This document shows positions 24,685-45,059 of a stretch of DNA of 64,000 bases, piece by piece. The notes below the pieces were generated by a model, which was not told the DNA's origin, did not search any database, and saw only the letters and a list, made by a program, of their open reading frames with translations. The stretch covers positions 1 to 64,000 of the forward strand of contig JABDIN010000108.1 in the NCBI GenBank assembly GCA_013003715.1, written 5' to 3'. This DNA comes from Desulfobacteraceae bacterium (GTDB lineage Bacteria > Desulfobacterota > Desulfobacteria > Desulfobacterales > Desulfosarcinaceae). Position numbers and translations under genes: made by a program. The stretch's first letter is position 1, and each line of letters begins with the position of its first letter.

Positions 24685-26253
24685 CTAAAACCGGAGTGTA
24701 AATCTTCGACGGTTGTTGTGTTGCCCTTTGTTCCGCCAATTCCCGTCGGGGGTGACGGCATGAACACAGCACACCAGGCAGGGGTCGAATGATCGAATCA
24801 CATGCTCCACTTCCACGGGATTGTCCGGATCGGCTACCCGGGTGCCCACAAGGGCATGCTCGCAGGGTCCCTTGAGATCATTTTTATCCGTGGGTGAAAG
24901 ATTCCATGCCGTGGGCGTGATAATCTGGTAATTGGCGATCTTGTTGTCCACTATTTTCATCCAATGCCCAAGGGCTCCGCGAGGCGCCTGAATGAGGCCA
25001 ACCCCGTCACCGTCTTTTTTCGTATGGTAATTATGAAAAAATTCGGAGTCCTGCCGCAACATCTCCTTCAACCATTGATCCATGATGGGAATCAAGGCCG
25101 CCGGGCGGACCAGGCGCGCCAATTGACGCTCAAAAACGCTTCCCCTCCGGCCTGCCGGCAAATCCAGAAACAGCGGGTCCGATGCAATGATCCGTTCGGC
25201 CAACGGACCGGTTTCAGCCGGTTTTCCATGATACCTCGGCGCCTTTGACCAGCTATATTTTTTACCGTCGCCGGTAGGTTGCAGCGGCAGTGTCCTCCCA
25301 TTAAACGGATGCGACGGTCCCATGTAATCGTCAAAATAGGCGCGGGAGACATCCTCCCGGACCATGCGTTCGTCAAACACCTGCACGGCCTCACCATCGT
25401 AAAAACCGGACGGCATATAATTCCGGTGCCCTTCCGGCGCCGCCACCCGGGTAACCGTCGGCATGGTCAAGCCGCCGAAACTGATAAATGTGCCCGGCCC
25501 CATGCCCATTGTATCCAGACCGGCGGCTTTGGCGAACCGGATAAAAAAGCCCACGTCTCCCTCGCTGTGCGCCGGTTTTTCATGCAACCATTCCTCCAGA
25601 CCTTGTCGGGATTCGATCTCACCCCAGCGTTCCAGGGTGCATCCCAGCACGTTGGTTTCATACCACCGGCGAAAGTTGCTGAGCAAATGCCGGCAGCTCC
25701 CGATGTCGTTGGAACTGGGAAGAGAAACCACACCGCCCGGCACAATGAATGAAGAGTGGGGCCATTGTCCGCCGAGAATGGAAATGATTTCCAACAATTT
25801 CTTGGTTTCCCGGATGGTCTGAACCACAGCCTCTCCCTTGAACACTGCATACCGCCGCAACGCCTCGTCGTATAAGGGCTGCTGCGCATGCGCCGGGCTG
25901 GTGAAATCGGGGAAAAACAACAGGAAAGATTGCCGGATATCATTCTGAAGCATTTCCGTCATCACGGTGACATTACGAAGCCGTAAACTGTCATCCGGCG
26001 TATTGGCCTTGTAAGCCATATCAAGGGCTTTTGCCGCTGCTTTCAGGTGGGACGTGGTACATATCCCGCAAATCCGGGGGGTAATGACCAAACTGTCCAG
26101 GGGGCTTCGGCCAATGAGCATATTTTCAAATCCCCGGTACATTGTCCCGGCACACCTTGCATCGGTGACCTCGCGATCTTCAATGGTCAAACGGACCTTA
26201 AGATCTCCCTCGACACGATTCACCGGTAATACTTCAATTGTTTTGGTTGCCAC
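24685..26253 (-). CDS. cytosolic [NiFe] hydrogenase large subunit, group 2-like, possibly H2-sensing
   Basis: 522 residues. The N-terminal nickel motif is RICGICTTSH (Cys62, Cys65) and the C-terminal one DPCLVCCVH (Cys492, Cys495, His498), with an extra Cys496. A 24-residue tail follows His498, so proteolytic processing is expected; the classic H2 sensors HupV/HoxC lack such a tail, which argues against a pure sensor. The GTG start is supported by an AGGA site. It pairs with the signal-less small subunit upstream and is followed by the PAS kinase gene (187-bp gap). Uptake in the cytosol or sensing are both possible. Confidence 0.85.
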   Translation of the reverse strand: MATKTIEVLPVNRVEGDLKVRLTIEDREVTDARCAGTMYRGFENMLIGRSPLDSLVITPRICGICTTSHLKAAAKALDMAYKANTPDDSLRLRNVTVMTEMLQNDIRQSFLLFFPDFTSPAHAQQPLYDEALRRYAVFKGEAVVQTIRETKKLLEIISILGGQWPHSSFIVPGGVVSLPSSNDIGSCRHLLSNFRRWYETNVLGCTLERWGEIESRQGLEEWLHEKPAHSEGDVGFFIRFAKAAGLDTMGMGPGTFISFGGLTMPTVTRVAAPEGHRNYMPSGFYDGEAVQVFDERMVREDVSRAYFDDYMGPSHPFNGRTLPLQPTGDGKKYSWSKAPRYHGKPAETGPLAERIIASDPLFLDLPAGRRGSVFERQLARLVRPAALIPIMDQWLKEMLRQDSEFFHNYHTKKDGDGVGLIQAPRGALGHWMKIVDNKIANYQIITPTAWNLSPTDKNDLKGPCEHALVGTRVADPDNPVEVEHVIRSFDPCLVCCVHAVTPDGNWRNKGQHNNRRRFTLRF

Positions 26254-40001: not shown

Positions 40002-40511
40002 CTACACGACCTGTTTTCCCGGACAGTCGATGCCGAGACGCTTAAGCTCATCGAGCACCATGCCGGCGAGGTCTTTCTTTCTGGAGTGAACCACAGGTGT
40101 CAGTTCGATACCCAGGGTCCGGATATCTGCGGGTTCCACACCAACGACAACCACCGTGGGTTCTTTGTCCACCATGCGGCAAAGGGTCAGGACTTCTACC
40201 ATGTCCACCTGGTGAAGCGAGTTTTTAGCGAGGATACGCCGGGGGATCTGCTCATCGGCCATTCGATACAGGGTGCCGGGCTCGTTCCGGTTTTGGACGG
40301 CATCCACGATAATCAGATGATCCGTTGCGGTAATGATGCCCATCAAATTCATACCGAGCACCCCGCCGTCGACCACATCCACATTGTCCGGGAACTGGAA
40401 GTTTTCCCGGAGGTATTCGATGACGCGAACCCCTATGCCTTCATCACTGTAAAGGATGTTTCCCACCCCCAGGACGGTGATTCGGGGCTTTTGGACCTTA
40501 TGTTTCACCAC
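40002..40511 (-). CDS. hydrogenase maturation endopeptidase (HyaD/HybD family), copy 2
   Basis: Removes the C-terminal tail of a hydrogenase large subunit after nickel insertion. 169 residues. Family motif ITVLGVGNILYSDEGIGVRV near residue 11 with the metal-binding Glu (position of SDEG), DGGVLGMNL and the Asp in DHLIIVDAVQ. It starts at GTG and overlaps the hypC stop, so it is coupled to hypC. It is about half identical to the second endopeptidase upstream. Confidence 0.92.
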   Translation of the reverse strand: MVKHKVQKPRITVLGVGNILYSDEGIGVRVIEYLRENFQFPDNVDVVDGGVLGMNLMGIITATDHLIIVDAVQNRNEPGTLYRMADEQIPRRILAKNSLHQVDMVEVLTLCRMVDKEPTVVVVGVEPADIRTLGIELTPVVHSRKKDLAGMVLDELKRLGIDCPGKQVV

Positions 40512-40771
40512 TCATCGATACCTTCCGGTTTTTTGGGCGTGATGCCGGCCTTATCCGATGCTGCGGCTGCTTCACGAAGAAGGCTGAGGGTTTCCGCTGC
40601 AGCCTGCTCATCGATTTTCTGAATGGCGAATCCGGCATGAACGATCACATACTCACCGACCTTTGCGTCTTCAAGCAACAGCAAACTGGCTTGACGGGTG
40701 ACACCATCCACATCGATGACCGCCATTTCATTGTCTATTTTTGTGATTTTCGAAGGTATGGCCAGGCACAT
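40505..40771 (-). CDS. hypC: hydrogenase maturation chaperone HypC
   Basis: 88 residues starting MCLAIPSKI; the Cys2 exposed after Met removal is the catalytic ligand that shuttles iron to HypD. Contains VDVDGVTRQASL-like core (VIDVDGVTRQ) and GEYVIVHAGFAIQKI. ATG at 40771 has an AAAGGAG site at good spacing; a GTG three codons earlier would place the essential Cys inside the protein and is rejected. It lies between two endopeptidase genes. Confidence 0.95.
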   Translation of the reverse strand: MCLAIPSKITKIDNEMAVIDVDGVTRQASLLLLEDAKVGEYVIVHAGFAIQKIDEQAAAETLSLLREAAAASDKAGITPKKPEGIDEW

Positions 40772-40776
40772 TTCGT

Positions 40777-41283
40777 TCACGCTCCTTTTCGGTCGGCCCG
40801 GACCCCCAGGCCTTTCAATTCATCGACGATCATCCGAATGACGGTATCCACCTTCAGGGCAATAATGGGTGTCAATTCGCAGCTGCAGGTTTTGTAATCA
40901 TCCGGTTCGACGGCAAACATTATGGTCCGGGGCACTTTTTCCAGGGCCTGCAGGTGAGCAAATGCTTCCAGGAATTCGACCTGTTGAACCGAATTTTTGG
41001 TCAGCAGCCGTTGTTTTATCTCTGCGGCGTCCAATCGGTAGATATCCCCGGGATTTCCGTTGTTGCACATCGTATCGATGACGATCAAATGATCGGGCAG
41101 GGAGATATACCCCAACAGACTCACGCCCAGCAGACCGCCGTCAACGATCTCGACATTATCCGGAAACGAATACCGTTGCTCCAGCATCTGAATGACGTTG
41201 ATGCCGAAACCATCATCACTGAACAGGGTGCAGCCAATGCCCAATACCATGATGTGTTCAGGATGCATACAATGATCCATCAT
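40777..41283 (-). CDS. hydrogenase maturation endopeptidase (HyaD/HybD family), copy 1
   Basis: 168 residues with IMVLGIGCTLFSDDGFGINV, DGGLLGVSLLG and DHLIVIDTM. In the first motif SDDG replaces the common SDEG, so the first metal ligand is Asp instead of Glu. Several ATG/internal starts are possible (41283, 41280, 41268); none has a strong ribosome site. First gene of the protease-hypC-protease set behind hynBA. Confidence 0.9.
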   Translation of the reverse strand: MMDHCMHPEHIMVLGIGCTLFSDDGFGINVIQMLEQRYSFPDNVEIVDGGLLGVSLLGYISLPDHLIVIDTMCNNGNPGDIYRLDAAEIKQRLLTKNSVQQVEFLEAFAHLQALEKVPRTIMFAVEPDDYKTCSCELTPIIALKVDTVIRMIVDELKGLGVRADRKGA

Positions 41284-41788: not shown

Positions 41789-43435
41789 TTAAATGGCCTT
41801 AACCTTGTAGACCTGGTTGGAATCCGGATCGATGACGTGGACGCCGCAGGCGACACACGGGTCAAAGGAATGGACGGTACGCAGGACCTCCAGCGGTTGT
41901 TTGGGATCGGCAACAGGTGTGCCGATCAGCGCTTCTTCCACTGGTCCGAGTTTACCTTTGGCGTCCCGCGGGCCGAGGTTCCATGTGGACGGCACGACAT
42001 ACTGGTAATTCCTGATCTTCCCGTCTTCGATGTGAAGATAATGGGACAACGACCCCCGGGGCACGTCGTTCAAGCCCACGCCCATGGCGCTGTCCGGCAT
42101 TTCGTATGGCTCGTAGGTAGACGTGTCGCCATTTTTGAGGTTTTCGATCAAATCCATGGTCCAGTTCTGTACCTGGTCGCCGATGGCAATGGTTTCAATG
42201 CCGCGTGCGGCGGTTCTTCCCAAGGTTGAAAACAATGCCGTCACCGGCACGCCCAGCTGTTTGAGGACACTGTCCACAACAGGTTTGATATCCTTGTGTC
42301 CCTTGCCGTATGCCACCAGAACCCGGGCCAATGGACCGACTTCGCAGGGTTCGCCGTCATATCGAGGCGCCTTGAACCAGGAATATTTGCCGTCGCCGGG
42401 ACGGTATTTCGGATCCTCCTGGACCGGTTTAGTTTCACCCTCATACGGATGGAGAGCCGGGCCGTCTTCATACCAGGCACGCGTGACATCTTCCGTCACC
42501 TTATCCTGGTCGGCCATCATGACCTTGCCCACATCGCGATTCTTTATCACGCCCCTCGGCATATACAGGCTTTCCGGTTCCTCGTCGTTCTGGGGGAATT
42601 CACCCCATGCCATGAAGTTGGTGGTTCCGCCGATGGCGCCCCAGTCCTTGTAGAAAGAGGCTACCGCCAGCAGATCCGGGATATAGACATTTTTGATGAA
42701 CTCCTGTGTCTCCTTGGTCAGGTATAAAAATTCGGCGATGCGGTCCGGTGAAAGATCCTTTACACAGGTGACGCCGCCCACCACCAGGGATTGTGGATGC
42801 GGGTTCTTACCGCCGAAGACCGCGTGCATCCGGGCGGATTTGGATTGGAGCCGAAGGGCTTCAATATAATGGGCACTGGCCATCAGGTTGGCTTCCGGTG
42901 GCAGTTTATAGGCGGAATGCCCCCAATAGGCGTTGGCGAACGGACCGAGCTGCCCGCTGTCCACAAATGTCTGAAGACGTTGCTGAACCTGTTTAAAATA
43001 AGCGGCGCCGCCCACCTTGGCATTGCTGACATTGTCCGACAGGGCGGCGGCCTTCTTCGGATCCGCTTTCAGCGCGCTGACGATGTCCACCCAGTCCAGC
43101 GCATGCAGATGATAGAAATGCACCAGATGGTCGTGCTGGAACTGGGCTCCCATCAACAGGTTTCTGATGATCCGCGCGTTCTTGGGGATCTTTACGCCAA
43201 CGGCGTTATCGACTGCCCTCACCGAGGACAGAGCATGTGTATACGTTCAGACCCCACATGATCGCTGCACAAAATGGTGCGCATCGCGGGGATCCCTGCC
43301 CTCGAGGATGAGTTCAATCCCGCGAAACATCTGTCCGGAGCTCCATGCATTGACCACTTTGCCGCCGGACACCTCCACTTCGATCCGAAGGTGGCCCTCT
43401 ATCCTTGTGATAGGATCAATTGTAATTCTACTCAT
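41789..43435 (-). CDS. hynA: periplasmic [NiFe(Se)] hydrogenase large subunit with TGA-encoded selenocysteine
   Basis: 548 residues if the in-frame TGA at 43249-43247 is read through. Residues 1-62 start [19 protein letters not shown] and end RSCGV; TGA is codon 63; the frame goes on [18 protein letters not shown]. Homologues have RSCGVCTYTHA here, so TGA stands exactly at the second Cys of the N-terminal Ni-binding motif. The C-terminal motif DPCVACGVH is ordinary (Cys527, Cys530, His533) with a 15-residue tail for protease removal. Known [NiFeSe] enzymes carry Sec in the C-terminal motif instead. A SECIS-like hairpin follows the TGA. It would oxidise H2 in the periplasm with HynB, 60 bp upstream. 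Confidence 0.85.
43213..43231 (-). promoter_or_regulatory. SECIS-like hairpin for Sec63 of HynA
   Basis: In the mRNA, CUGUCCUC and GAGGGCAG pair over 8 bp (one G-U) and close a GGU apical loop. There are 23 bases between UGA and the loop, inside the 16-37 range described for bacterial SECIS elements, and the loop begins with G followed by GU, as in fdhF. Confidence 0.6.
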
Positions 43436-43495: not shown

Positions 43496-44437
43496 TTACA
43501 TTTCCTCGTAAAACGGCGTGAAATTGTCCCAGAATTTCGGTTCACTGCATCCGATGCAGGGATGCCCGGCTTCCACCGGCCAGCTGGTGCCGTCGTTGAA
43601 CTTAGCGGTGGGGCAGTTATTATAGGTTTCCGGACCCCGGCAGCCGACATTGTACAAGCAATACCCCAAAGCCGCCTCTTCGGAACCGAATTCTTCGACA
43701 AATTCCTCATTTTCGAAATGTCCTCTGCGGGGACATTGATCATGGATGGTTTTCCCATAGGCAAAATAGGGTCTGCCCAGTTCATCGAGATCGGGCAGTT
43801 TGCCAAGCAGGAGATAATTTACAATTGTCCCCACCAGGTTTATCGGATTGGGCGGGCATCCGGGAAGATTCAATGCCTTGATGCCGAGGGCATCACCGAC
43901 GCCCTTGTACCCGCCGGGATTCGGTGCAGCGGCCGGTATACCGCCGAAGGATGCACAGGTACCGATGGAGATGACGGCCGCAGCCTTGGGACATACCTCT
44001 TTGGCGATGTCGAGAAAGGACCTCCCGCCGATTTTCCCGTACCCGCCATTGTATTTAGTGGGGATGGACCCCTCGACGACGCAGATGAATTTACCATCAT
44101 ACTTTTTCACCGAGGCGTGCAATTGTTCTTCCGCCTGGTGTCCTGCCGCCACCATGATGGTTTCGTGGTACTCAACGGATAGTACTTCGAGCACCAACTC
44201 ATCGATGAATGGATACATGGACCTAAGGAGTCCTTCCGAACATCCGGTACACTCTCCGAAATGAAGCCAGATCACCGGCGGCCGTTGTGCCGGAGATGCA
44301 AAAACATCTGCTATCTTCGGTACGAACGATGACGATAATCCCATGGTTGCGGTCAAGAGCGTACAATACTTCATAAAGTCTCTTCGTGAGACCCCTTTGC
44401 GCTCCAACCTCTCATAAAAATCTCTTTCTTGTCCCAT
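43496..44437 (-). CDS. hynB: periplasmic [NiFe] hydrogenase small subunit with Tat signal
   Basis: 313 residues from ATG 44437, which follows GAGGAGG. The Tat signal SRRDFMK (residues 17-23) and hydrophobic stretch lead to a cleavage region near ASPAQ, so the assembled dimer is exported folded. Proximal-cluster motif ECTGCSE (Cys63, Cys66), with GTCASFGGIPAA, LPGCPPNP, DQCPRRGHFE, YNVGCRGPETY and CIGCSEPKFWDN for the other clusters. Electrons most likely pass to periplasmic cytochrome c3. First gene of the hynBA operon. Confidence 0.95.
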   Translation of the reverse strand: MGQERDFYERLERKGVSRRDFMKYCTLLTATMGLSSSFVPKIADVFASPAQRPPVIWLHFGECTGCSEGLLRSMYPFIDELVLEVLSVEYHETIMVAAGHQAEEQLHASVKKYDGKFICVVEGSIPTKYNGGYGKIGGRSFLDIAKEVCPKAAAVISIGTCASFGGIPAAAPNPGGYKGVGDALGIKALNLPGCPPNPINLVGTIVNYLLLGKLPDLDELGRPYFAYGKTIHDQCPRRGHFENEEFVEEFGSEEAALGYCLYNVGCRGPETYNNCPTAKFNDGTSWPVEAGHPCIGCSEPKFWDNFTPFYEEM

Positions 44438-45059
44438 TGGCACCTCCTCGTGATGCTGTTATGGATTATTGGGATGAACGAAGGGTATGGCACCCTGTAA
44501 TATTTTATAAAATGCATTGGCGTTTTGAGAAAAAAATATCCCGGCTCCGAACGGGTAAAGGAAAGCGGGAATGACACTTTATTTTCATGCGGAATAGTAT
44601 GGGCGGGTGATTTCAGGATTGGGGAGCCTATCCGTACGCGTGCCGTGGTATTCTTACTGCAGATTGTCAAAGAGAACCGAGAATAAAAGAGTAAATCAGC
44701 GATGTTTGATTTTCAGTGTCATCGACTTAATCGGCGTAAAAGACGGAGCCCCCGGAATGCATATGAACCCAGCGGGGACGAAACAGCAGCGGTATGGTTC
44801 ATACACTTGCACAATCCCTTGTCCGATATGGATCCGGTGCCGTCCGGCTTTCCCGGTTGAAAAAAACACGGCAATAATCAGCTATGTTTTTTCTAATTGT
44901 ATTAGGGTAAGATTAAGCCACAGTATTAGGGCAGAGTCGGCGTTGAGTCAAGGTAAAAAGGCTTTCTCACGATCGGAGTCAGCGGCCGACGGAGCATAAT
45001 GGCGCCAAATTCGCAATGATCCAAAATATTCAGCGCATTACATCATAAAGAACACGCGA
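44438..45059. other. hynBA upstream region
   Basis: About 620 bp without a credible gene; a 130-codon plus-strand frame at 44607 shows no domain or ribosome site. Contents: arms TATGAACC (44762-44769) and GGTTCATA (44796-44803) forming an 8-bp stem, and two direct TATTAGGG copies at 44900 and 44924. No consensus promoter was found; regulatory elements for hynBA should lie here. Confidence 0.5.

Follow-up and report, generated by a model that had tools for sequence, protein, structure and literature searches.

A predicted selenocysteine at the bridging N-terminal ligand position of a periplasmic [NiFe] hydrogenase in Desulfobacterales

Introduction

HysA of Desulfovibrio and Desulfomicrobium, a periplasmic nickel hydrogenase of sulfate reducers, carries one selenocysteine (Sec) among the four ligands of its nickel. 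In the known [NiFeSe] enzymes Sec occupies the C-terminal, non-bridging position, and we know of no natural hydrogenase with selenium at the N-terminal bridging position. The available text of a study on engineered Escherichia coli Hyd-2 assigns the Sec of [NiFeSe] enzymes to the position of Hyd-2 Cys546 and reports that the enzyme stayed active when any one of its four Ni-binding cysteines, Cys64 among them, was exchanged for Sec (PMC11212049). According to the same portion of that study, activity per mg fell short of that of the native enzyme in the Sec variants, and the marked change was seen at Cys546, not at position 64 (PMC11212049).

FrhA and the MvhA/VhuU selenoproteins likewise have Sec in a nickel hydrogenase large subunit, placed in a UxxC motif by the accessible part of a 2026 inventory that distinguishes 119 families or subfamilies, split by Sec position (PMC13188914). 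In that part group-1 HysA has no row of its own, so the inventory may not be exhaustive (PMC13188914). The accessible text on D. autotrophicum lists one periplasmic [NiFeSe] hydrogenase plus a Sec-containing Mvh hydrogenase whose Sec position is unnamed (PMC2702500).

Here we describe a hynA gene in a window of 64,000 nucleotides (the whole stretch of DNA that was analysed) from a Desulfobacteraceae genome. Like HysA, its product would be a periplasmic nickel hydrogenase of a sulfate reducer with one Sec ligand. HysA has this residue in its C-terminal DPUxxC motif, whereas the window's protein has DPCVAC there and a predicted Sec in the N-terminal RxCGxU; the N-terminal L1 motif likewise sets it apart from the UxxC proteins FrhA and MvhA/VhuU.

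Results

The hynA frame (Table 1) begins with an ATG at 43435-43433, is interrupted by a single internal stop, a TGA, and then stays open to the stop codon ending at 41789. A preliminary description of this DNA had claimed that the frame is broken by one TGA alone, at the second Cys of RxCGxC, and that the C-terminal motif is all-Cys. Translation of the minus strand confirmed the former, and the latter is borne out by DPCVACGVH here and by Cys-Cys in 113/113 Sec-type entries with motif sequence. Its claim that the TGA does not mark a frameshift also stands: the flanking sequence lies in a single frame on both sides, which rules a frameshift out.

Table 1. Features of the hynA region, in window coordinates.
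Feature	Coordinates	Strand	Remarks
hynA, periplasmic [NiFe] hydrogenase large subunit	41789..43435	-	548 residues with UGA read through
UGA codon, residue 63, second Cys position of L1 (RSCGV-U-TYTH)	43247..43249	-	
First L1 cysteine codon, TGT, residue 60	43256..43258	-	
C-terminal metal motif DPCVACGVH	41837..41863	-	both Cys are ordinary Cys codons
Predicted bacterial SECIS hairpin	43213..43231	-	8-bp stem CUGUCCUC/GAGGGCAG, loop GGU
hynB, small subunit, twin-arginine signal, directly upstream of hynA	43496..44443	-	TIGR00391 415.1 bits; TIGR01409 TAT 26.7 bits
Maturation protease, HupD/HycI type	40777..41283	-	over TIGR00072 and Pfam cut-offs, below TIGR00140
HypC/HupF chaperone	40505..40780	-	profile matches
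Second hydrogenase maturation protease, HupD/HycI type	40002..40511	-	profile matches

The hynA product matches Pfam PF00374 with 742 bits, and its closest solved relatives are periplasmic [NiFe] hydrogenases (HynAB), which are similar in length and share its ligand motifs; the match to 1h2a scores 729.5 bits. This alignment is gapless over query residues 4 to 107, so HynA residue 63 equals 1h2a residue 84, which we take to be the N-terminal cysteine bridging Ni and Fe. The preliminary description had left Sec at a "bridging or terminal" L1 position, and the alignment narrows this to the bridging one. The PF00374 domain, the L1 and C-terminal ligand motifs and the C-terminal tail after His are all present. 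HynAB has four Cys ligands, whereas we found three Cys and one UGA, the predicted Sec standing where 1h2a has Cys84. The protein scores below the cut-offs of NCBIfam NF033181 (NiFeSe_hydrog, nickel-dependent hydrogenase large subunit; 585.9 versus 600 bits) and of the HysA model NF045518 (432 versus 780 bits).

The small subunit paired with hynA bears a TAT signal, as expected for the periplasmic HynA type. Two different maturation proteases flank HypC (40002-41283). A further nickel hydrogenase large subunit, whose two motifs (RICGICTTSH and DPCLVC) are all-Cys, is encoded at 24685-26253 of the window.

The same TGA recurs in relatives. Some match was present in 24/30 genomes of the window's own family, and among the 15 close orthologues seen, six (the window's own included) have TGA at exactly that codon and nine have TGT or TGC. 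At least 200 of 389 genomes of the order have a match at E<=1e-100. With 80 further regions added and L048 left out, the 128 parsed loci comprised 57 with TGA, from 56 genomes, and 71 with TGC or TGT, 15 of the latter from distant groups. The L1 position is thus TGA or TGC/TGT across relatives, the alternation that the preliminary description had proposed looking for. Of the 81 matches to the motif across the genome collection, 80 were listed. Among these, 71 are hydrogenases with an L1 TGA, and the other nine were set aside as chance because they had many stops or no hydrogenase context (L154, L161, L173, L191, L197, L200, L216, L223 and L231). Together these two overlapping sets, 57 loci and 71 scan matches, make up 128 TGA entries with 78 distinct 75-base sequences. 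Carriers of the TGA type include Desulfobacterales and Desulfosarcina MAGs, Eth-SRB1, Candidatus Desulfaltia, HSG9 and a Syntrophobacteria MAG, among others, as well as the Delta 3 and Delta 4 symbionts of Olavius algarvensis and the Delta 1 symbiont of Olavius sp. Outside the order, the window's TGA type occurs in at least two genomes (G469 and G519). An in-frame UGA aligned with Cys of homologues, the pattern by which bacterial selenoproteins are recognized, is therefore present.

Faulty sequencing or assembly, or recent decay into a pseudogene, would also leave a stop in hynA, and the named relatives are mostly metagenome-assembled genomes, any one of which could be wrong on its own. The recurrence of the same TGA in 78 distinct sequences is hard to reconcile with such an origin. 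Moreover, the L1 TGA is the sole in-frame stop in each of the 113/128 Sec-type entries with C-terminal motif sequence (71 distinct coding sequences; the stop mark at L001 precedes the start of that gene). Among the remaining 15, all of them partial, three show extra stops: L206 is masked with N, the stops of L133 lie beyond the end of its match, and those of L220 are without explanation. Apart from these three, the random stops that the preliminary description had named as a sign against its reading are absent from the homologues. Median dN/dS downstream of the UGA was 0.112 for 162 Sec pairs and 0.155 for 86 Cys pairs, as calculated for non-independent pairs of equal length with dS of 0.1-1.5 only, which indicates that the protein behind the TGA is under purifying selection. 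With such selection on both sides of the TGA and a frozen hairpin behind it, the comparisons indicate that the TGA-bearing hynA is neither an error nor a pseudogene, and we give that explanation almost no weight.

The predicted SECIS hairpin starts 15 bases after the UGA and is formed by codons 6 to 11 (CTG TCC TCG GTG AGG GCA). Counting rows with the respective amino acid, codons +7 to +11 are nearly invariant in Sec copies (TCC 73/73, TCG 78/78, GTG 73/73, AGG 78/78, GCA 74/76), versus 6/35, 33/54, 24/51, 8/55 and 3/55 in the Cys set of 56 orthologues; the 15 distant Cys loci were left out of the codon, pairing and entropy comparisons. All eight stem pairs can form in 73/77 Sec sequences (77 of the 78, one with N being left out) versus 0/56 Cys sequences, and the loop of the Sec sequences is GGU in 72/77 and GGC in 5/77. 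Variation in the stem is small: one pair changes from U-G to G-U in two sequences and to G-G in three others, and the outer C-G pair is replaced by U-G (9), U-A (2) or C-A (1).

Normalized synonymous entropy, computed over 383 six-codon windows of 71 Sec sequences, reaches the minimum of the gene in the hairpin window (0.054 versus a mean of 0.80, sd 0.12); the nine lowest windows all overlap the hairpin, and Cys sequences have 0.75 there. Within the window's family, these comparisons indicate that the synonymous sites of the hairpin are conserved in TGA-bearing copies alone. Pairing accounts for most of the fixed third positions once the amino acids are taken as given. The third position of TCG, however, falls in the loop and is not constrained by the code, yet it is G in 78/78 Sec sequences; this would be expected if SelB reads the loop, as we infer. 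Considered as a single sequence, the hairpin is no more stable than shuffles (z 0.00), and no Rfam SECIS model matches it.

A Sec system, which the preliminary description had suggested looking for, was found in the host genome (5.5 Mb, 115 contigs, 97% complete). The genes selB (379.7 bits), selA (601.3) and selD (363.9) and a tRNA-Sec (71 bits; ARAGORN anticodon TCA) each exceed their cut-offs. The host selD (L021, G000:C8) is itself interrupted by one in-frame TGA (CGUAAKI), so that its product, too, is a predicted selenoprotein. Among the 80 genomes checked, selA is present in 80/80 (56 Sec and 24 Cys), so the presence of sel genes does not separate Sec from Cys genomes and was dropped as a discriminator. 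At E<=1e-60, selB was found in 49/56 Sec genomes and 23/24 Cys genomes; the seven Sec genomes with no selB match are assemblies of 320 to 740 contigs. These gene distributions indicate that the Cys forms in these 80 genomes are not caused by loss of the Sec system.

Since Sec insertion in bacteria generally competes with termination, the UGA and hairpin could act mainly as a regulatory switch, stopping translation when selenium is low, for example, and leaving the full-length protein a minor product. Such a switch would add to Sec insertion and not replace it, and both the purifying selection on the downstream frame and the maturation genes that follow argue against it as the main function, which we consider highly improbable.

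Sec and Cys forms both occur within one family. On a FastTree phylogeny of 136 large subunits (73 Sec), which counts label changes without direction, there are at least 15 switches between the Sec and Cys labels, and eight of them are forced by well-supported branches. Columns with the strongest differences between Sec and Cys forms, uncorrected for relatedness, include 66 (T or I versus mostly V) and 304 and 462 (mostly S versus A). The existence of Cys orthologues that alternate with Sec forms on the tree would fit readthrough of the UGA with cysteine or another amino acid, yielding an ordinary [NiFe] hydrogenase. Against this stand the complete Sec system with its tRNA-Sec(TCA) and a hairpin that, in the window's family, is kept only with UGA, and we judge readthrough of this kind very unlikely.

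Predicted Sec in L1 extends beyond the window's type. A broader pattern matched 79 of 389 genomes in a class-level sample whose listed members all belong to the window's order, versus two matches with a reversed control; not all 79 are hydrogenases, and 11 inspected matches were not (L269, L278, L282-L287, L311, L313 and L314). A second type, RICGVUTTVH, occurs in 12 genomes of family f22 (L299-L310), with TGA as the sole stop found in each, and an L1 TGA is also present outside the order, in at least three f92 genomes (L262-L264; f92 is another family). These 15 genes form a second large-subunit clade: in a quick tree of 56 rows with long-branch warnings, f22, f92 and three Cys forms stand apart from the window's type with support of 99/100. 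The f92 hairpin is clear and unlike the window's (CAGCUC, loop CGUGA, GAGCUG). In f22 the codons TCG GTC CGG GCG are fixed in 12/12 sequences; confidence in the putative f22 hairpin is lower than in the other hairpins because the minimum-energy folds of the 12 sequences are not alike and the frozen codons come from one family. An f92 Cys form with TGT (L265; G534:C179) keeps the f92 hairpin letter for letter and is likely a return from Sec to Cys with a fossil SECIS.

Two genes have TGA at both L1 cysteines. In L262 (f92; G603:C106:1-5000, + strand from 1408) the motif is SRI-TGA-GV-TGA-TTVH and the frame is open otherwise. In L315 (in the region of L273; G270:C211:500-6500) it is RT-TGA-GV-TGA-PITH, at 2113; this gene, from family f41, represents a distant subfamily that has long inserts; it is otherwise open for >670 residues and has DFCCAC at the C-terminus. 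A small-subunit frame, recognized by eye, lies upstream. Each of the two genes has one hairpin downstream of the second UGA, at a distance to the loop of 17 bases in L315 and 23 in L262; the first UGA is nine bases farther away. The first TGA may be an assembly error, since each gene is known from one genome, the two belonging to distant subfamilies, and three f92 relatives carry Cys at the first L1 position. We see the case as evenly balanced for a broader reading of these genes, in which natural [NiFe] hydrogenases would use Sec as an N-terminal ligand and bridging Sec would have arisen more than once, in distinct clades with different hairpins. By the same reading, at least two subfamilies would have Sec as both L1 ligands, terminal and bridging, with two UGAs, nine bases apart, sharing a single hairpin and giving a di-selenium Ni-Fe site.

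Discussion

The codon, its conservation, the selected hairpin, the Sec genes and the operon, all read directly in the genomes, point to Sec incorporation and a selenolate bridge in HynA. Very probably, the UGA is read as Sec by SelB and tRNA-Sec via the downstream hairpin, and this Sec is the second N-terminal ligand, bridging Ni and Fe, with Cys as the other three. In the proposed sequence of events, SelB with tRNA-Sec, directed by the hairpin 15 bases downstream, would decode the UGA; the large subunit would then fold so that three Cys and one Sec hold Ni-Fe, selenium bridging the metals. The C-terminal tail would be removed by a HupD/HycI-type maturation protease, two of which the neighbouring genes specify, and the TAT signal of the small subunit would direct both subunits to the periplasm.

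By its motif, and in keeping with the start offset of its match in the comparison with solved relatives, the Hyd-2 Cys64Sec variant appears to be the laboratory counterpart of the window's protein. The Hyd-2 variants were made by UAG programming, whereas the window's gene has a natural UGA and a SECIS-like hairpin. Because the engineered position-64 variant is active, Sec at the bridging position is, by analogy, chemically viable. The marked change in Hyd-2 was at Cys546, so the benefit here need not be that of the [NiFeSe] enzymes. As a tentative guess, which we hold to be rather less probable than its converse, the benefit could be reversible instead of permanent oxidation of the bridging chalcogen, easier nickel loading, or both. 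Catalytic bias is another property that Sec might alter here.

A natural hydrogenase with Sec in L1 appears to be new. There is some chance, though a small one, that it is already in print, for example in the 2007 selenoproteome study of the Olavius algarvensis Delta 1 symbiont, and the Delta 3 and Delta 4 symbionts of that worm and the Delta 1 symbiont of Olavius sp. do carry the gene. The accessible part of the 2026 inventory, which cites the 2007 study, lists hydrogenase alpha subunits with UxxC alone (PMC13188914), and a literature search for the motif strings CGVU and CGxU found nothing. Natural Sec in L1 goes unmentioned in the available portions of PMC8318568, PMC1242214, PMC1794560, PMC9312934, PMC9961374, PMC10362691, PMC13111528 and PMC10779653, and the main text of PMC12013277 lacks the word hydrogenase. 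More generally, the matches listed in the literature, as far as their available text goes, include no natural L1-Sec hydrogenase; the 2007 Olavius study and a 2021 Hyd-1 study lie outside that scope.

Gene callers that take UGA as a stop would presumably cut L1-Sec genes. Annotations may therefore miss periplasmic hydrogenases of uncultured sulfate reducers, among them worm symbionts and partners of hydrocarbon-oxidizing archaea. The available text of one study describes SEEP-SRB1 genomes as having no periplasmic hydrogenases (PMC5539420), and since a hynA cut at its UGA could be missed, that absence is worth re-checking. Eth-SRB1 (L178) carries a predicted L1-Sec hynA.

If selenium truly bridges Ni and Fe in these enzymes, a ligand swap seen until now in engineered proteins alone also exists in nature, and the position of Sec would differ from that emphasized for catalysis and oxygen tolerance. 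With natural Sec and Cys orthologues alternating in one order, the role of selenium at each ligand position would become directly testable.
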